Positions 1-21,848 of a stretch of 24,209 nucleotides of DNA are shown here, in pieces (positions within the stretch are counted from its first letter, which is position 1; the number at the start of each line of letters is the position of its first letter). This DNA comes from a virus, in IMG/VR virus record IMGVR_UViG_3300021373_003633, positions 1-24,209 of that record; one strand, written 5' to 3'. The position numbers were made by a program, and so were the translations under genes. The notes below the pieces were generated by a model. That model did not search any database. It saw only the letters and a program-made list of their open reading frames with translations, and was not told the origin of the DNA.

Positions 1-541
1 TGGTTGCTCGTCCAAGGATTCCACCAATAAACTTAAATGTGCCTGAGAAAAGACTAAAGAACTTACCAATTGCTTTACTAATTGGACCGGCCTTGAAGTC
101 ATCCATCATTTTAGCTACTTTGCCGGCAACAGGCAATACCAAACCCTGATTGACAACAAAAGCAATCTTCTGCACATTATTGATAAATTTAAGGAATGAA
201 TCCATAATAGATTGGATTGATTCACGGATACCTTTATCCAAGAAAGCAGCAGTGGCTGCCAGTGCTGCAGCTGTACCAATAAGTAATTGGTCAAAGATTT
301 TATTCGGGTCTTGATTTGGAGTAAGTTTCGAACCACTAGAAGAATCTTGGCCCTGAGCTCTAGACTTTTCTCTCTCAGATTCCAGCTCATCAAGAGCTTT
401 GCGCTTTTCCAATTTAAAGAAATTAGAAAATTGTTCAGACAGACCATGAATAGCATTAGTTTGCTTTTCTTGCTCTCCTAGAGTATTAAGGTTTGCCTGA
501 ACTAGGGTAGCCTGTACGTCTCTTAATGTAATCTCTGCCAT
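1..541 (-). CDS. Probable tail tape-measure protein, N-terminal part (runs off the window)
   Basis: The frame opens with an ATG at 541 and stays open to the left edge, giving about 180 codons that begin MAEITLRDVQATLVQ. The first 75 residues are polar and heptad-like, rich in Glu, Gln, Lys and Leu, as in a coiled coil. They are followed by a Ser/Gly/Asn/Pro linker, an Ala-rich hydrophobic segment (about residues 90-110) and a second Phe/Gly-rich hydrophobic segment near the break. Helical N-termini with hydrophobic stretches are usual for tape-measure proteins, which set tail length and pass through the tube. The gene lies directly after the gp26/gp51 pair, where tail chaperones normally precede the tape measure. 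I infer the T4 gp29 role from position and composition; no diagnostic motif is seen. A different large internal virion protein is possible. Confidence 0.55.
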   Translation of the reverse strand, partial: MAEITLRDVQATLVQANLNTLGEQEKQTNAIHGLSEQFSNFFKLEKRKALDELESEREKSRAQGQDSSSGSKLTPNQDPNKIFDQLLIGTAAALAATAAFLDKGIRESIQSIMDSFLKFINNVQKIAFVVNQGLVLPVAGKVAKMMDDFKAGPISKAIGKFFSLFSGTFKFIGGILGRAT

Positions 542-556
542 TTATTTACACTCTGT

Positions 557-739
557 TTACTGGTTTTGTCGAGCCTTTTCGGCCTCTTCTTCTAAGTACT
601 CATTCAGCATCATTATGTAAATTTCCCTTTCCCAAGGGAGCATTTCTTCTAACTCTGTCAAAGAATATTTATGGTGTTGGATCAATTGGAAGTTAGAACG
701 ATAATAGTTAGCTAAGCTATCATGGGAAAGGCCTACTGA
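557..739 (-). CDS. gp51: gp51-like baseplate hub assembly frame, probably made as a -1 frameshift extension of gp26
   Basis: This minus-strand frame overlaps the end of gp26 and is open from 745 to a TAA at 557-559. Its peptide includes LSHDSLANYYRSNFQLIQHH, KYSLTELEEMLPWEREIYI and an acidic coiled-coil tail ending EEEAEKARQNQ. The QHHKYS...ELE.M.PWER.IY pattern is what I expect of gp51-type hub-assembly proteins in T4-like phages. No ATG or GTG lies before the conserved part: the first ATG falls inside ELEEM, and only internal TTG codons precede it. The frame enters gp26 exactly at a run of seven T on the coding strand. I therefore infer production as a C-terminal extension of gp26: 242 gp26 residues plus 60, giving 302 in all. 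Initiation at a TTG codon after translation of gp26 is the alternative. Confidence 0.7.
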   Translation of the reverse strand, partial: SVGLSHDSLANYYRSNFQLIQHHKYSLTELEEMLPWEREIYIMMLNEYLEEEAEKARQNQ

Positions 740-1464
740 AAAAAATCAGCAGTACCTTTAAGAACCTCTTTATTCTTTGCACCACAGCCTTCACAGACCC
801 ACTTGACTTCATGGGTAAGTTCAGGAATAGTGTTAATGAAATCTTGAATCAGCTTAAACTGACCGGATGTAAAGTTAGAAATAAAGTCGGAAATCTCTTC
901 TTCTGTATGATCCTCAACCATGAATCGATTATCACCCTGCATAATAGCAGAAAGACATGCACGTACCATAGTGAATGATGCCTCAACCTGATCGGTATTC
1001 TCAGGCATTGAAATCAGACGCTGAAGATCACCATAAGAAGGGAACTTGAGTTCAAGATGTACATCATCTGTTAGCTCAACAACATATGGACCTTTTTTGC
1101 CTTTTGGCGTAGGTGGTTTAATATCATCAAAGTTAATAGTGATTGGTGTAGATGTTTCACAACCATCCTCAGCACACTTCAGACCTACGTCAGTGGTCTC
1201 GCCAACAGACCTTGCACGAATCTTTAGGAACATATAATCAATATCAAACATCGTCAATGTACGTACATTAACATCTGAATTGATAAGACATGCCTCAATG
1301 GTTTTAGCAAGAGTATCCAGCATAATATTACGGTCATTGGATTCCATTGCTTGCATCATCACTTTCTCTTCTTTAACAAGATAAGGACGATACTCAACCA
1401 TTTGACCGGTTGAAGGAATCTTCATTTTGTAATTAATGTGTGCATTAAGTTTAGGTAATGCCAT
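733..1464 (-). CDS. gp26: gp26-like baseplate hub subunit / tail-assembly chaperone
   Basis: This 243-residue protein begins MALPKLN and continues with a conserved gp26-type N-terminus (PSTGQMVEYRPYLVKEEKV, then FDIDYMFLKIRARSVG at about 73-88). Two cysteine pairs (C97/C102 and C224/C227) could form a zinc knuckle or ribbon. In T4, gene 26 is needed for hub assembly. In the marine relatives the gene is larger and zinc-finger-like, as here. A good ribosome site (GGAG) lies about nine bases upstream of the ATG. The gene follows the tube protein and leads into the gp51-like frame and then the probable tape measure. By position it plays the part of the short tail chaperone (lambda gpG-like). The 3' end carries the slippery run described separately. 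Confidence 0.85.
   Translation of the reverse strand: MALPKLNAHINYKMKIPSTGQMVEYRPYLVKEEKVMMQAMESNDRNIMLDTLAKTIEACLINSDVNVRTLTMFDIDYMFLKIRARSVGETTDVGLKCAEDGCETSTPITINFDDIKPPTPKGKKGPYVVELTDDVHLELKFPSYGDLQRLISMPENTDQVEASFTMVRACLSAIMQGDNRFMVEDHTEEEISDFISNFTSGQFKLIQDFINTIPELTHEVKWVCEGCGAKNKEVLKGTADFFQ
739..745 (-). promoter_or_regulatory. Candidate -1 programmed ribosomal frameshift site (T TTT TTT)
   Basis: On the minus strand the last gp26 codons read GAT TTT TTT CAG TAG, so the heptamer T TTT TTT is in the correct phase for tandem -1 slippage (X XXY YYZ). The zero-frame stop comes one codon later, at 733-735. After slippage the frame continues as SVGLSHD into the gp51-like sequence. A Shine-Dalgarno-like AAAGG at 759-755 ends nine bases before the heptamer, similar to the internal stimulator of bacterial -1 sites such as dnaX. 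I did not find a convincing downstream stimulatory hairpin. The heptamer and phase are seen directly; use in vivo is inferred. Confidence 0.65.
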
Positions 1465-1481: not shown

Positions 1482-1994
1482 TTATACTTGTTCAGGTTCC
1501 CAGTCTGTATAGCTCAATTCTACATTAAGTTGTACCAGACTATTTTCATTCTCATCGCCGAGTTCAATAGCATTAACTGTTGTAGGGAAAGCCCTGAGGA
1601 GCTTACAACCATAAACAACAGAATCATCACCATGATTTAGCTGAAAGATCGATACTGTTTTTGAATATTCTGTTTTGTATGCTAGTTCATAATCACCTGG
1701 ATTTACAACAGCTCTTTGCCATTCATCAAAGTAATTACGTACTGAGTAATTATTATCTAGAATAAAGGTAAGTGATACATCATTGAAACCAAATGCATAA
1801 GGCATTTTCTGAGTGATCATACCAATACGACGTTCTTGAGTAAGAATCTGACGACCTGGTAGATTTGCTGCACGACAAAGGATATTAAGGTCACGACCAT
1901 CCATACCGAAATCACTTGGCAACATGATCTTATAACGATTGGCCCGTGCGACACCTGAGGTGATCGCGCCTTTAAGTTCTTCGATACTACTCAT
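1482..1994 (-). CDS. gp19-like tail tube protein (or baseplate tube paralogue)
   Basis: I choose the ATG at 1994, giving 170 residues starting MSSIEELKGAITSGVARANR. It forms an ATGA overlap with the upstream stop and has an AGAGG ribosome site just before it. T4 gp19 is about 163 residues. The protein shows the tube-family outline: an ARANRYKI segment, then C-R-AANLPGR, a FDEWQRAV stretch, Y...YSKTVSI, a FPTTVNAIEL strand and the closing YTDWE typical of the family. Tube subunits stack as hexameric rings around the tape measure to form the DNA channel. The main tube gene of T4-like phages usually follows the sheath gene, so this copy beside the hub genes may be a paralogue forming the first rings. 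The sequence cannot decide this. Confidence 0.75.
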   Translation of the reverse strand: MSSIEELKGAITSGVARANRYKIMLPSDFGMDGRDLNILCRAANLPGRQILTQERRIGMITQKMPYAFGFNDVSLTFILDNNYSVRNYFDEWQRAVVNPGDYELAYKTEYSKTVSIFQLNHGDDSVVYGCKLLRAFPTTVNAIELGDENENSLVQLNVELSYTDWEPEQV

Positions 1995-5230: not shown

Positions 5231-6570
5231 TGAGTCAAAATGAGATTTCTAGTCCATATGATTATGGATATCATAAAATCAGTATTGAAGGGCCGAGGTT
5301 TAATTCAGTAAACATCGAACACCTGGTCCTGGAAATCTCTTTATATGAGAATCTAGGCAGTCCTTTTGTATCTGGTAATATGATCATTCTTGATTCTGCA
5401 AATCTGTCTAACCATGTTAATTTCATGGGACAAGAAAAGATTAAGATCGAGTTGTATGATCCATATGAACAGCAATTTGTTGTTAAGTCATTTGTAACAA
5501 CTGGTGTAAAACGATCTGAAAAAACTAGTGATAATGCATCGTCTATTATTGTCTCTTTTGTTGAAGAACATGTAACACTTTCGAATATTACTCGCTTTTC
5601 AAAGACATATGAAGGTAAGATCGAAACCATTATTTCTGATATTTTGGCTGATCAGTTGAATGTACAAGTACAAACAGATACTAGTGCACAGGCCGTGATG
5701 AGATATATTGCACCTTATACTATTTCACCACTTAAGGCCGTGAATATGTTAAGACGCCGTGCTACAAGTACAAATGGTGCACCGTTCTTTTTGTATTCAT
5801 CTATTAAAAGACCAGGACTTAGACTTGCTAATCTTGAAACACTTATTTCACAGCCATCTTTTAATAATCAGCCGTTCATCTACTCAATTGTAACTGATCC
5901 TGAGTATTCTGAATATAGCTACTCTGTTGAAAATATGGAAGATCAATCACATAAGATTCGTAGTTTGAATATTATGGATAATGAAGATGTTGCACGTCTT
6001 TTTGAAGAAGCTGGGTTTGGTGCACAGTATCTTTGGCTCGATACTATTAAAGATATTGCTACTGAGTTAAGACACCGTTCACCTGAAGTACTTCGCAGAT
6101 TGCCAAAAATGAATGGCGATATTAACTATGATGATAACTTTACCGTTGGTGGTAAACCTTATCATGAAGGTGTTAGCAAGTATACTACTGAAATCACAAC
6201 AAAATATCTGTTTGATAATATAAATAGTTTAAAAGAAGAAGTAGTAATTGATGACCATATGCGCAAAGCTCAGGATCGTTCTATTCGTTCTATGTTAAGT
6301 AAAGCGCCAATGACAGTACAGTTGCCAGGCTATCAGTTCTTTGAAAACGAAGCAATTGGTAAAGTTATTAATTTGGAAATCCCAAAAGATATTCCAATTA
6401 TGGATGAAGCTGCAGTTGGTGAAGATGTGATTGATAAGAAGCGCTCTGGTCGTTATTTGGTATATGGTACACGTCACTTATTTAAGAATGGTCAATATTC
6501 TGCAAATCTTAATGTAACCAAATTGGATAATAAAGATTCAATTAAGAACGAGACGGTTAACCAAGTATGA
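5230..6570 (+). CDS. gp27: gp27-like baseplate hub protein
   Basis: This 446-residue protein (T4 gp27 is 391) starts MSQNEISSPYDYGYHKISIE. It reads as the hub family: a first barrel with LEISLYENLGSPFVSGNMII and LSNHVNFMGQEKIKIEL, then a helical section (IETIISDILADQLNV) and APYTISPLKAVNMLRRRA with a second barrel, GAPFFLYSSI. The close GRYLVYGTRHLFKNGQYSAN is typical of hub proteins. In T4, gp27 forms a trimer that joins the tail tube to the gp5 spike. The following gene has the gp5 OB fold and overlaps the stop as ATGA, as expected for partners. Confidence in the hub role is good; sequence similarity to T4 gp27 itself is probably low. Confidence 0.8.
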   Translation: MSQNEISSPYDYGYHKISIEGPRFNSVNIEHLVLEISLYENLGSPFVSGNMIILDSANLSNHVNFMGQEKIKIELYDPYEQQFVVKSFVTTGVKRSEKTSDNASSIIVSFVEEHVTLSNITRFSKTYEGKIETIISDILADQLNVQVQTDTSAQAVMRYIAPYTISPLKAVNMLRRRATSTNGAPFFLYSSIKRPGLRLANLETLISQPSFNNQPFIYSIVTDPEYSEYSYSVENMEDQSHKIRSLNIMDNEDVARLFEEAGFGAQYLWLDTIKDIATELRHRSPEVLRRLPKMNGDINYDDNFTVGGKPYHEGVSKYTTEITTKYLFDNINSLKEEVVIDDHMRKAQDRSIRSMLSKAPMTVQLPGYQFFENEAIGKVINLEIPKDIPIMDEAAVGEDVIDKKRSGRYLVYGTRHLFKNGQYSANLNVTKLDNKDSIKNETVNQV

Positions 6571-7100
6571 TAGACTATTATGGCGATAATTTCAGATGGT
6601 TTATTGGTATTGTTGAAGACAATAGAAACGATCCATTGAAACTTGGGCGCGTACGCGTACGTGTATTCGGAGTTCATTCGCCTTATTTTAATCAGATTGA
6701 AATTGATGATCTGCCTTGGGCAACAACCATGATGAGTCCGGGAGGTGGCATTTCGGGTGTAGGTCGTGGAGATATTTCTGAAATTGGTGCATGGGTATTT
6801 GGTTTCTTTATGGACGAAGAAATGCAAAATCCTGTGGTGCTTGGTACTCTTCCCAAGATTGAAATTCCAGGTCCTGATAATATTAATCCAATGCCTGTTG
6901 AGCCAGGTGCAGTTCATAATGATGCAGCTAAACCACAATCGCCTCGTGGTGTAAGTAATGCTGAAAAAGTTACAATGGGCGCAATTGATAGAGGTTTCTC
7001 TCCGGTAGTAGGTGCTGCATTGGTTGGCGCACTTGCTGTCGAAACCGGTAATCCAAATCTTTCGCCTTTGACTGAACTCTTGCCAGGACAAGCACCATGA
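6567..7100 (+). CDS. gp5: gp5-like spike OB-fold protein carrying the first part of a tail lysozyme
   Basis: This 177-residue protein has the gp5/VgrG OB fold at about 1-110: WFIGIVEDNRNDPLKLGRVR, VRVFGVHSP, DLPWATTMMSPGGG and GAWVFGFFMDEEMQNPVVLG. A Pro-rich linker follows. The C-terminus VVGAALVGALAVETGNPNLS looks like the first helix and catalytic glutamate (E159) of a phage tail lysozyme (Phage_lysozyme2 type), but the frame stops there. The remainder of that domain starts in the next frame with an ATGA overlap. In T4, gp5 is one 575-residue chain of OB fold, lysozyme and beta-helix, so this gene is only its first third. The OB assignment is strong; the lysozyme half-domain is an inference from the two frames read together. 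Confidence 0.85.
   Translation: MIDYYGDNFRWFIGIVEDNRNDPLKLGRVRVRVFGVHSPYFNQIEIDDLPWATTMMSPGGGISGVGRGDISEIGAWVFGFFMDEEMQNPVVLGTLPKIEIPGPDNINPMPVEPGAVHNDAAKPQSPRGVSNAEKVTMGAIDRGFSPVVGAALVGALAVETGNPNLSPLTELLPGQAP
7085..7088 (+). promoter_or_regulatory. Ribosome binding site (AGGA) for the lysozyme fragment, inside the OB-fold gene
   Basis: AGGA sits eight bases before the ATG at 7097, inside the last codons of the preceding gene. It argues that the lysozyme fragment is translated from its own coupled start rather than by frameshifting. I see no slippery heptamer in the overlap. Confidence 0.5.
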
Positions 7101-7390
7101 CAAATCCTACTTCATTCGGAATCGCTAAATGGACCGGTGAAAGACAAGAAGAGTTTTTTGCTTGGTGTGCATCATTTAATTACGATCCATTTAAGATTGA
7201 TGTTCAAATCGAATATATTTTTCATGAATTGTCAACCCATCCTGAATTAGGTATGGCACAATTGAAGAATGCAAAAACTATTGATGAGGCCGTTGAAATC
7301 TTTACCGAATATTACCTTGGGTATGATGAAGATGAACTGAGTGATAGTCGTAAGGCTTTTGCTCGTGATGCATTTGAAAGGTTTTGTTAA
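7097..7390 (+). CDS. Tail lysozyme domain, C-terminal part (Phage_lysozyme2-like)
   Basis: This 97-residue protein begins MTNPTSFGIAKWTGERQEEF and continues with a Trp/Cys/Phe helix, then IDVQIEYIFHEL, a hydrophobic helix and AVEIFTEYYLG, ending in DSRKAFARDAFERF. The GIAxWTGxR motif followed by Q-x-x-YI-x-x-EL and an A-x-x-F-x-x-YY segment matches the middle and end of phage tail lysozyme domains. The first helix with the catalytic glutamate is missing here but is present at the end of the overlapping upstream protein. The two products may associate to rebuild a muramidase that cuts peptidoglycan during injection. A single-base error joining or splitting one gene is an alternative. Confidence 0.8.
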   Translation: MTNPTSFGIAKWTGERQEEFFAWCASFNYDPFKIDVQIEYIFHELSTHPELGMAQLKNAKTIDEAVEIFTEYYLGYDEDELSDSRKAFARDAFERFC

Positions 7391-7392
7391 AA

Positions 7393-8673
7393 ATGAAAAT
7401 TAATGCAGTAGCAATTACATCGAAATTATTGACTCTTCTTGGTGGTATTGTCAAACTTCTTACTAGTACATACACAGCATCAGGTGCCGCTCAGTTGCAG
7501 CTTAAGCAATTGAGAGACTCACCGGAAGAAGCTGAAATCGGTGCTGATGTTGGTGGACTTCAGGTTAAAGCAATTGCTGATGAGAATTATGATGATGCCG
7601 GTAATCGTACTAAGAAAACTGCAATTGGAATCTATGGTGACAAGCTAGATACAATTGGAGACCTTCGCCGTACACCTACTCCTGAACTTGCTCAAGTGCA
7701 GCAAATTTATTATGGTGAACCAAATAAAAAGGCACAGCTTTTTAGGACCGTTACTGCTGTTACTACAGAAGCGGCCAATGAAGCATTTGCCCAAACCTTA
7801 AGAGCTACCGGTCAGACTACAGAAGAACAAACATTTCAGGCATCTTTATTTGCTTCCGAGAATCTTGCTGATTCTACCGGTCTACCTCTTGGTGCATCTT
7901 CTGTTGGTTTGTTGAATGATGCAATCACTACTATTAATGATGATGCCGAAAGATTTAATAAGCAAATCAAAAAAGCTGGAGATGGCAGCGTAATTGGTTC
8001 TTTGACTAAGAATGACGATCCGGCCAATAATACTGAATTGGACACAAAGTCTGATTTGTTTGGTGTATCGACTGTGCCGACAATTGATATGAAGAATGTA
8101 CCACCGCGAATGATTCTTAAAACTTTTGAAGAAATGGAAGCAATCATTCGTTCATCAACTCGTGAAATTACAGAGGTCGTTGTTCACCATACAGATACAT
8201 ATGAAAACCAAGATGTAAGTTATGATATTTTATACCAATGGCATGTAGTTGATAATAAGTGGTCTGATGTCGGTTATCACTTTATCATTATGCGAAACGG
8301 TGATCTTCAGGTATGTCGTCCTATTTCCAAGAAAGGTGCACATGCCCGTAGTCATAACAAATATTCAATCGGTATTTCTTTTGTTGGTGGGTTACAAGGT
8401 TCATCAACAAAGAAAGGCAAGACTCGTTCAGCAAATACTTTTAGACCGGTTCAATGGAAAACATTTGACACTTTTATGAAAGCTTTCTATACAGTACATC
8501 CGGGTGGACAGGCATGGGGTCACAATGATATTGATCCTGATCGTCGTTCTGATCCAAACTTTGATGTACCTGAATATGTCAAAAAACGTTTTTCAAAAGA
8601 AAATGTACAAACTTCTAAAGATGCGGCACTGACCGGGTCTTTGTCTACAGATGAAATAATTGCAAGGCACTAA
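7393..8673 (+). CDS. Virion-associated N-acetylmuramoyl-L-alanine amidase (Amidase_2 domain)
   Basis: I start at the ATG at 7393 (426 residues) rather than the TTG nine bases earlier. The first 230 residues form an Ala/Thr/Asp-rich structural region with no family I recognise, starting with a hydrophobic helix (AITSKLLTLLGGIVKLL). The C-terminal 165 residues form a type-2 amidase: EVVVHHTDTYENQ with HH at 265-266, WSDVGYHFIIMRNGDLQV, KGAHARSHNKYSIGISFVGG and AWGHNDIDPDRRSDPNFDV. H266 (or H265), H377 and D387 fit the zinc ligands. Arg385 stands where AmpD/T7 enzymes have Lys. The enzyme would cut the sugar-peptide bond of peptidoglycan. Its place between lysozyme and spike genes suggests a structural baseplate part rather than a lysis endolysin. 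Confidence 0.85.
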   Translation: MKINAVAITSKLLTLLGGIVKLLTSTYTASGAAQLQLKQLRDSPEEAEIGADVGGLQVKAIADENYDDAGNRTKKTAIGIYGDKLDTIGDLRRTPTPELAQVQQIYYGEPNKKAQLFRTVTAVTTEAANEAFAQTLRATGQTTEEQTFQASLFASENLADSTGLPLGASSVGLLNDAITTINDDAERFNKQIKKAGDGSVIGSLTKNDDPANNTELDTKSDLFGVSTVPTIDMKNVPPRMILKTFEEMEAIIRSSTREITEVVVHHTDTYENQDVSYDILYQWHVVDNKWSDVGYHFIIMRNGDLQVCRPISKKGAHARSHNKYSIGISFVGGLQGSSTKKGKTRSANTFRPVQWKTFDTFMKAFYTVHPGGQAWGHNDIDPDRRSDPNFDVPEYVKKRFSKENVQTSKDAALTGSLSTDEIIARH

Positions 8674-8676
8674 TTA

Positions 8677-10323
8677 ATGGCAGGTTCTTTTCCATATACT
8701 GAGATTGTTTCTTCTCGTTCAGGTTATACCAAAGTAAGATTGACTAATGGTGATGTTGTTGAATATGGTGGCTCACGTGGTTATCGTAATAACAATCCAG
8801 GCAATCTGACATCCGATTCTAAGTCACAAAGAATCTTAAATAAGTACAAGCCTTATGGTGCTATGGGCTATGACTATGGTGGTAACCTGATCTTTTCTGA
8901 CATGCAGGGTGGATTCAATGCACAAAAAGCATTGGTCACCGGCACATATAAAGATTATAGCATTGGTGGTATGCTTAATAAGTATGCACCTCCTGGCGCT
9001 GCCAATGATCCAAATGGAACTAATGCATCTTATCCTGGTTATATGGAAAAGCAAGGATGGAATCTAGATACTAAGATTTCAGATCTTTCTCCAGAAGAAC
9101 AAAATCAGTTAATTGCTGATATGATTCGTAAAGAGAATAGCACATCCGATGCCAATAAGATTCTTGATGAAGTTGACTTGGGTGATACTTCCAATGTACA
9201 AAAGGGCGGACAATCTGGATTTAGTACACCTGAAGATGATGGTGAAGATGGTCAGAATTCCAATACAGATAATCAGAGGTCTGGATCAGTCACACCTCGT
9301 AATGATAAAGTAGTACCGACTGACGATTTTGGCTTTAAGAACTATTCCAAAAATCAATACTATAATGAATCTGGTATCAACAAAGCAGCACGAGGTGAAT
9401 GGGAACCCAAGCTAAAAGTCGGCGGTGGTCCACTTGGTAAGAATCTATTTCCTACTAGTGCAAATCCACGGTATCCATATAACAATGTAACCGAGACATC
9501 TTCCGGTCATCGTATTGAATTAGATGATACACCTGGTGAAGAACGTATCACGACTGTACACGCGGTTGGTTCTGGTATGGAATTCCATGCCGATGGTACA
9601 GTGGTTCTTAATTCATATGATAAAACCATTCAAGTTGTTGGCGATGACTTTACCGTATATGTTCGTGTTAATGGCGATATTACATATGAAGGTGATTTGA
9701 GCATGCATGTACGCGGTGACATGAAAGTAAAAGTTGATAATAACTATACCTTGGAAGTCGGTGGTAAGATCATCGAAAGGGCCATAGAAGGTCGCTCAGA
9801 GGTCGTAGAAGGGGATAAGGTATCAACTGTGATTGGTAACATGTCCGAAACAATTACCAACTCAGCGACCCGTACGACCCTTGGAGATAATACTCAGGTC
9901 GTTAAAGGTGATATGAACTTCTGGGCAGAAGGCGACGCCGAATATTTGACCAAAGGTAATCAACATTTTTCTTCAGAAGAATCAATGACATCTGCATCTC
10001 CAGTAATCAATGCAACGGCCCTTAATATGAACTTGACTGCACCATCTGGTCATTTTGGTGGGTCAGGCGTTATTGCTCATGGCTTTGCATTCAAAGGATA
10101 TGCACAAGGTCTTTGGAATAATATTACAATTGCTTCGGCATATACACCAGATGCTAACACGGCACAAGATACTTTGTTTTTGTCTGAAAAAGGTATCTAT
10201 GATGTTGATATCGATCCGGGTAACAAAATCAAACAATCTCTTGATTTGAGAGAAACTACAAGTATTGGTCAAAATACTTCATCAACAACCGACAATGCAA
10301 CTTCATTTAATCTGGTAGAATAA
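8677..10323 (+). CDS. Spike protein: RNNNPGN-motif domain plus gp5-type C-terminal beta-helix
   Basis: This 548-residue protein is in three parts. Residues about 33-165 hold YGGSRGYRNNNPGNL, a G-x-FSDMQGGFNAQKAL segment, a MLNKYAPPGAANDPNG loop and LSPEEQNQLIADMIRKE. Such RNNNPGN domains occur in phage virion proteins and are often suspected of acting on peptidoglycan, which is not proven. A polar linker follows. From about 280 to 460 there is a repeated G-D/N plus alternating-hydrophobic pattern (VNGDITYEGDLSMHVRGDMK, VVEGDKVSTVIGNMSETI). It resembles the octapeptide beta-helix of the T4 gp5 C-terminus and VgrG needles. I infer a trimeric cell-puncturing needle that sits below the OB-fold protein. 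Confidence 0.75.
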   Translation: MAGSFPYTEIVSSRSGYTKVRLTNGDVVEYGGSRGYRNNNPGNLTSDSKSQRILNKYKPYGAMGYDYGGNLIFSDMQGGFNAQKALVTGTYKDYSIGGMLNKYAPPGAANDPNGTNASYPGYMEKQGWNLDTKISDLSPEEQNQLIADMIRKENSTSDANKILDEVDLGDTSNVQKGGQSGFSTPEDDGEDGQNSNTDNQRSGSVTPRNDKVVPTDDFGFKNYSKNQYYNESGINKAARGEWEPKLKVGGGPLGKNLFPTSANPRYPYNNVTETSSGHRIELDDTPGEERITTVHAVGSGMEFHADGTVVLNSYDKTIQVVGDDFTVYVRVNGDITYEGDLSMHVRGDMKVKVDNNYTLEVGGKIIERAIEGRSEVVEGDKVSTVIGNMSETITNSATRTTLGDNTQVVKGDMNFWAEGDAEYLTKGNQHFSSEESMTSASPVINATALNMNLTAPSGHFGGSGVIAHGFAFKGYAQGLWNNITIASAYTPDANTAQDTLFLSEKGIYDVDIDPGNKIKQSLDLRETTSIGQNTSSTTDNATSFNLVE

Positions 10324-20783: not shown

Positions 20784-21848
20784 ATGGACAAGACTTACGG
20801 TGTAGCTCAAGAGCTCGCAACATCTTTTAATCGCGATTCAAAAGCGACATACAACAATTGGAATGGTGAATCAGTCACAGCCGATTCCGATGTTGCCCGT
20901 ATTGAATATGAAAATGGCTTGGTAAAAGGTATTCTTATTGAGGATGATGATCTTCGTCTTAAGCTGACAGATACTTATTATGATTCTGCAGATTTCGACG
21001 ATGAAATCATTAATGGTACTTTTGATAATGGTACAACCGGTTGGACTGTACCAACAACAGCTCAAGTAACAACCGGTGATAATCGTCTAGAATCAAATAG
21101 AAATGGCGAGATTGATGAAGACCTTGCAAGTTTTTATCAGATTTTTTCTACACCTGTAGGTCAAAAGTATAGAGTCACTTTTAATCTTATTTCAGTAACT
21201 CTTGGCGATTTTATTGCAGAAGGCTCAACGGCAAACTATAATACGATCCATAATTCAATCTATACTAATACACCAGGCCAGCATTCATTTGAATTCACAG
21301 CAACAACTACATCGAGTCGTATTTCTATTAGACCTGAAAACTTTTCTGGTGTAATGATTGTAGATAATGTTAGTGTAGTTCCTTTGAACAACTTTGGTAC
21401 ATCTGGTTCTATTCTAGTTAAGGGTAAACACTCATTGGGTCTTGGTCAAAGATCTGCTGCAGGAATCCAGGGCATCTTTTCATTGAAAGATTCTGGTACT
21501 TCTGGTACTGATACAATTAATGCATATATTGATAATGATTCATTGGTATATGAAATTGTATCTGGCGGTTCTTCTATTCTTGACCAAGATTTGACTACTT
21601 CATTGGATTCCGCTTTTTCAATGCTAGTTACTTATGAAACCGGTAGTCAAAAAGCATTTTTGAATGGAACTAAAGTTGCTGATTTGTCGGTAACTTCTGC
21701 ATTACCTTCAACGTCAATTGATACATTACAAATTGGCGGAATCTTTGCGGGTTCAACACTTAAAGGCTTTAATGGCAACATTTCTGAATTGAAATTTTGG
21801 CCACGAGTATTGAGCGATTCAGAAGGTCTTAGTTTCAGTTCTTTATAA
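20784..21848 (+). CDS. Tail adhesin with CBM-like and LamG/concanavalin-like domains
   Basis: This 354-residue protein starts MDKTYGVAQELATSFNRDSK. The SFNRDSKATYNNWNGES...ARIEYENGLVKGILIEDD head (about 14-55) is a motif found at the front of many phage tail and fibre proteins. Residues about 78-205 form a carbohydrate-binding-module-like sandwich (INGTFDNGTTGWTVPTTAQV, then FYQIFSTPVGQKYRVTFNLI and MIVDNVSVVPL). Residues about 210-350 look like a LamG/concanavalin-type domain, ending with GFNGNISELKFWPRVLSDSE. Both folds bind sugars, so I infer a receptor-binding or surface-glycan-binding virion protein. The start follows the upstream stop directly. The stop overlaps a late-promoter box. Confidence 0.75.
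   Translation: MDKTYGVAQELATSFNRDSKATYNNWNGESVTADSDVARIEYENGLVKGILIEDDDLRLKLTDTYYDSADFDDEIINGTFDNGTTGWTVPTTAQVTTGDNRLESNRNGEIDEDLASFYQIFSTPVGQKYRVTFNLISVTLGDFIAEGSTANYNTIHNSIYTNTPGQHSFEFTATTTSSRISIRPENFSGVMIVDNVSVVPLNNFGTSGSILVKGKHSLGLGQRSAAGIQGIFSLKDSGTSGTDTINAYIDNDSLVYEIVSGGSSILDQDLTTSLDSAFSMLVTYETGSQKAFLNGTKVADLSVTSALPSTSIDTLQIGGIFAGSTLKGFNGNISELKFWPRVLSDSEGLSFSSL

Follow-up and report, generated by a model that had tools for sequence, protein, structure and literature searches.

Does the gp26 reading frame of this locus end where its stop codon stands, with gp51 as a second gene behind it, or do the two frames form a single gene that is decoded in two ways? The locus lies in a 24,209-nucleotide stretch of viral DNA carrying T4-like tail genes (IMG/VR virus record IMGVR_UViG_3300021373_003633, positions 1 to 24,209), which we refer to as the window. 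The gp26 frame (733-1464, minus strand; 243 amino acids), which would encode the short form of a chaperone, matches PF12322 (E = 2e-52) and phrog_150 (E = 3e-57). Its 3' end on the minus strand reads GAT TTT TTT CAG TAG. This places an in-phase slippery heptamer, T TTT TTT (745-739), three bases 5' of the stop, followed by a CAG codon (738-736) and the TAG itself (735-733). An SD-like AAAGG (759-755), a candidate stimulator, is located nine bases 5' of the slip site. In the -1 frame, a gp51-like extension of 60 amino acids plus stop (557-739, minus strand) reads past the slip site as FFSVGLSHDSLANYYRSNFQLIQHHKYSLTELEEMLPWEREIYIMMLNEYLEEEAEKARQNQ, ending at a TAA (559-557), and matches phrog_634 (E = 6e-26). 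The joint open frame, consisting of gp26 residues 1-242 plus the extension, would encode a long form of 302 amino acids with ADFFSVGLSHDSLANYYR as the predicted junction peptide.

A TGA in the -1 frame abuts the slip site on its 5' side, and therefore no gp51 start is possible upstream. The first ATG of the gp51 frame in the window is residue 33 of 60, within the conserved part, and no GTG precedes it. A TTG first occurs at residue 19, and no Shine-Dalgarno-like sequence was seen ahead of it on reading the window. An earlier note, made from the letters alone, had described the heptamer one codon ahead of the stop, the AAAGG, the open -1 frame leading for 60 residues into gp51-like sequence and the lack of an ATG or GTG ahead of the conserved part; all of these hold.

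The minus-strand genes run from head-closure through DNA-end-protector, tail-tube-like, gp26 and the gp51 frame to a gene that is cut by the contig end. The 5' neighbour of gp26 (1482-1994, minus strand) encodes a tail-tube-like protein of the gp54/gp19 class (PF06841, E = 3e-7; phrog_45, E = 1e-34). The gene after gp51 (1-541, minus strand), whose ATG at 541 is 15 bases past the gp51 stop, is a probable tape-measure gene by its likeness to relatives. Its fragment is 29.7% identical (E = 1e-18) to a 573 amino acid ORF from another locus (L010), which in turn matches a tape-measure family (E = 1e-6), and tape-measure family matches were also obtained from the next genes of L035, HTVC008M and phi-Grn1. 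The gp26/gp51 locus sits between a tail-tube-like gene and a tape-measure-like gene, and the earlier note's placement of a probable tape-measure gene directly behind it is supported by way of these relatives. In P-SSM4, the gene after gp51 (L002, 3203-6177) matches an endolysin-labelled phrog family over the whole read length (E = 5e-162), which suggests that the probable tape measure contains a hydrolase domain or that the family is wrongly labelled.

The AlphaFold2 model of gp26 has a mean pLDDT of 93.3 and the extension is modelled as helical (pLDDT 86.7). A fold search of the gp26 model against the PDB placed the HK97 tail assembly chaperone 2OB9 among the best matches, although not significantly (probabilities 0.57 and 0.44, E of about 0.8), with 0.57 being one of the two highest probabilities among the gp26 PDB matches. 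The match is weak, with a TM-score of 0.36-0.45 by target length. The same search with the extension alone returned nothing significant, sequence searches found no gp26 homologue with a solved structure, and there was no NCBIfam model for gp26 or the extension.

We assembled 97 loci with the frameshift layout, comprising the window, 80 IMG/VR contigs and 16 named phages. The named phages include members of Kyanoviridae (P-SSM4, Syn1, ACG-2014b, Melnitz-3 and HTVC008M), Straboviridae that have the frameshift layout (EniLVp02, phi-Grn1, TCU-VP04, Aeh1 and Ci1) and others (phiN3, Mendera, ACP17, V45v66, IG49 and Atu_ph04). Reducing this set at 70% protein identity left 77 representatives. An in-phase T TTT TTN lies at most nine bases from the gp26 stop in all 97 loci, and likewise occurs in six loci found later (L135-L140). 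The last base of the heptamer is C in 51 loci, T in 39, A in six and G in one. The residue ahead of it can be S, D, N, G, T or A, while its codon always ends in T (AGT, GAT, TCT, AAT, GGT, ACT or GCT). Among the 77 representatives, the motif is formed at 70 of 70 terminal FF sites, whereas FF pairs elsewhere in these genes form it in only two of 48 cases (Fisher P = 8e-31, ignoring kinship among loci). The heptamer is invariant in relatives at 33-43% protein identity and also in more distant phages; a single-protein scan with Atu_ph04 gp26 as query gave no matches. The site is conserved at the nucleotide level beyond what the protein needs.

The frame behind the site is conserved too. The extension is open from the slip site to its stop, is 58-69 amino acids long in complete relatives, and its protein sequence is conserved among them. 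No ATG or GTG occurs before extension residue 11 in 50 of the 77 representatives, and an upstream start in the extension's frame is present in only five. The reading offered in the earlier note turned on relatives keeping the heptamer and lacking a start, and they do so, in every locus for the heptamer and in most for the start. In the annotated frameshift-layout genomes that we examined, gp51 is either annotated separately, in many cases from a start further downstream, or omitted, and in none is it joined to gp26. Cyanophage-type annotations start gp51 within the conserved frame or omit it (L002, 3010-3195; L003, 2055-2186; L005, 2055-2198; L004, after 2004).

Sequences flanking the slip site may stimulate slippage. 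Across the 77 representatives, the upstream region pairs with the anti-SD more strongly than synonymous shuffles do (mean -6.1 vs -5.2 kcal/mol, P = 5e-5). The 60-base stretches downstream of the site in relatives fold more strongly than shuffles (mean z = -1.27; control, -0.33), and hairpins are found there in many relatives, while the window's own downstream stretch has no notable structure (z = 0.76) and no consensus downstream RNA structure was found across all loci. The hairpins lie approximately 20 bases past the slip site in L012, L029, L030, L055, L057 and L083 and approximately five bases past it in L041, L064 and L068. They are lineage-specific, with stems kept despite different sequences, and are candidate frameshift stimulators.

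The T4-type layout is a mirror image of this arrangement. T4 genes 26 and 51 are divergent in orientation. T4 gp51 has a PF12322 match over residues 1-201 (E = 4e-52) and, in its final 48 residues, the counterpart of the window's gp51 extension, while T4 gp26 consists of the N domain alone; T4 therefore has a short and a long paralogue. By sequence comparison, the window gene corresponds to T4 gp26 as the short form and to T4 gp51 as the long form. The proposal that separate T4 genes 26 and 51 are represented here by one frameshifted gene stands as far as this correspondence goes, but T4 gp51 is the full long form and not just the C-terminal piece. An ATG-started gp51 with no slippery run, which the same proposal had counted as evidence against itself, was found only in T4-type phages, where gp51 has its own N-terminal domain, and this explains such genes rather than refuting the frameshift. 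T TTT TTN was absent from the T4-type short gene in all 25 IMG/VR loci with this layout, some of them near-identical, and in all seven named phages. Many T4-type gp26 proteins still end in EFF, encoded by GAA or GAG followed by TTC TTT or similar codons. The presence of the site in the single-gene layout and its absence from the T4-type layout indicate that the slip site tracks the use of one gene to make both forms.

In an unrooted tree of the N domain, the frameshift genes, T4-type gp26 and T4-type gp51 form three supported groups (95/92, 97/97 and 100/99). Because it has no root, the tree alone cannot show that the duplication is derived. The frameshift layout spans several families together with some Straboviridae genera, and the two-gene layout occurs in our dataset only in Straboviridae. 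This family spread favours the duplication as the derived state.

What we observe directly is a conserved slip site, an open frame that joins the two coding regions, the order of the genes and the fact that gp26 and gp51 of T4 are paralogues. From this we infer that gp26 and the gp51 frame are, very probably, one tail assembly chaperone gene expressed through programmed -1 ribosomal frameshifting. The slippage, its rate and the action of the chaperone are predicted as follows. Most ribosomes would end at the TAG and release the 243-residue short form. A minority would slip one base back with both phenylalanine codons of T TTT TTT in the ribosome and continue through gp51 to give the 302-residue long form, which carries the helical extension at its C-terminus. 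If the system works as lambda G/GT does, the tape-measure protein of the neighbouring gene would be coated by numerous copies of the short form and a small number of the long form, whose extension would recruit tube subunits.

Alternatively, gp51 could be a separate small gene, with its own start or coupled to gp26 by stop-restart at the gp26 stop. Deposited annotations do place internal starts, and TGATG or TAATG occurs at the gp26 stop in Vibrio phages, Mendera, phiN3, Atu_ph04 and L138-L140. Nevertheless, we regard a separate gene as very unlikely, given that in the window neither an ATG nor a GTG precedes the conserved part and a -1 frame stop abuts the slip site, that most relatives similarly have no early start, that the slip site is retained even where an ATG overlaps the gp26 stop, and that these residues are found fused to a gp26-like domain in T4-type phages. 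A TGATG or TAATG in the -1 frame overlaps the gp26 stop, with the slip site retained, in L007, L089, L091, L094, L100, L106 and L138-L140. Stop-restart at such an overlap could add a free gp51, and it is conceivable, if unlikely, that Schizotequatrovirus, EniLVp02, Mendera, phiN3, Atu_ph04 and L138-L140 combine a frameshift fusion with stop-restart, giving three products per locus.

The T run itself raises two further explanations for the junction. RNA polymerase could slip on it, so that the long form would be translated from altered mRNA. The run is seven or eight T long in 35 of the 77 representatives, which would suit such a mechanism, but in the other 42 it is only six T long, too short for usual transcriptional slippage, and what is conserved is the phase and the heptamer pattern rather than the run length. 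Transcriptional slippage is thus highly improbable. Homopolymer runs are also prone to sequencing error, and the junction could in principle be a decayed or misassembled single gene. The same junction is present in 96 other loci, complete isolate genomes included, and this conservation rules out decay or assembly error for practical purposes.

The window has two other regions of note, both on the plus strand. T4 gp5 appears to be split over 6567-10323 into ORFs that each abut the next: an OB-domain ORF (6567-7100), a 97 amino acid ORF (7097-7390), an Amidase_2 protein with a possible TTG start (7384-8673) and a gp5 C-terminal-like ORF (8677-10323). The amidase seems to stand at the place of the lysozyme domain of T4 gp5. 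Downstream of a 1643 amino acid DUF4815 protein is a protein with a Laminin_G_3/concanavalin-like domain (20784-21848), which is probably related to adhesion or fibres.

Frameshifting at lambda G/GT is classical, and in both lambda G/GT and P2 E/E+E' a -1 site yields short and long products from a position before the tape-measure gene. The window shares with these systems two overlapping frames ahead of a tape-measure-like gene, a -1 slip site close to where the first frame ends and, as predicted here, short and long products. Unlike lambda-type chaperones, the window gene has a T4-type PF12322 N domain and the slip motif T TTT TTN, and no significant sequence or fold match between it and lambda-type chaperones was found. 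A 2016 review that summarises lambda G/GT frameshifting describes it as widely conserved in long-tailed phages, with T4 excepted (PMC5009743).

The N domain and the C-terminal extension are common to the window gene and T4 gp26/gp51, but the T4 forms come from two divergently transcribed paralogues that have no slip site. The chaperone identity of gp26 and gp51 in T4-like phages is already published, reportedly by Vladimirov, Gautam and Davidson in 2022 (Virology 566:9), and the window is a well-supported further case. The PRFect paper cites this work for just such an arrangement of a short gene and a fused long gene in some T4-like phages (PMC10885494). Among T4 proteins, gp26 and gp51 are counted as chaperones of hub assembly, and gp51 is required yet is not in the particle (PMC3004832). 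The present analysis adds numbers for the conservation and a contrast of the two layouts. gp26 and gp51 thereby gain a common short/long tail-chaperone logic across T4-like phages, in which slip-site and two-gene genomes would be two natural ways of setting the ratio of short to long forms. A report on phage Adele describes, for the chaperone locus of Vandenendeviridae/Andersonviridae, a conserved -1 frameshift with the motif GTTTTT, and states that short chaperone genes of T4-like phages are known to have poly-T signals of a similar kind (PMC12846349). In both the window and the Adele locus, the short frame ends in a T-rich -1 motif ahead of the tape measure, although the motif is T TTT TTN here and GTTTTT in Adele, and the phage families differ.
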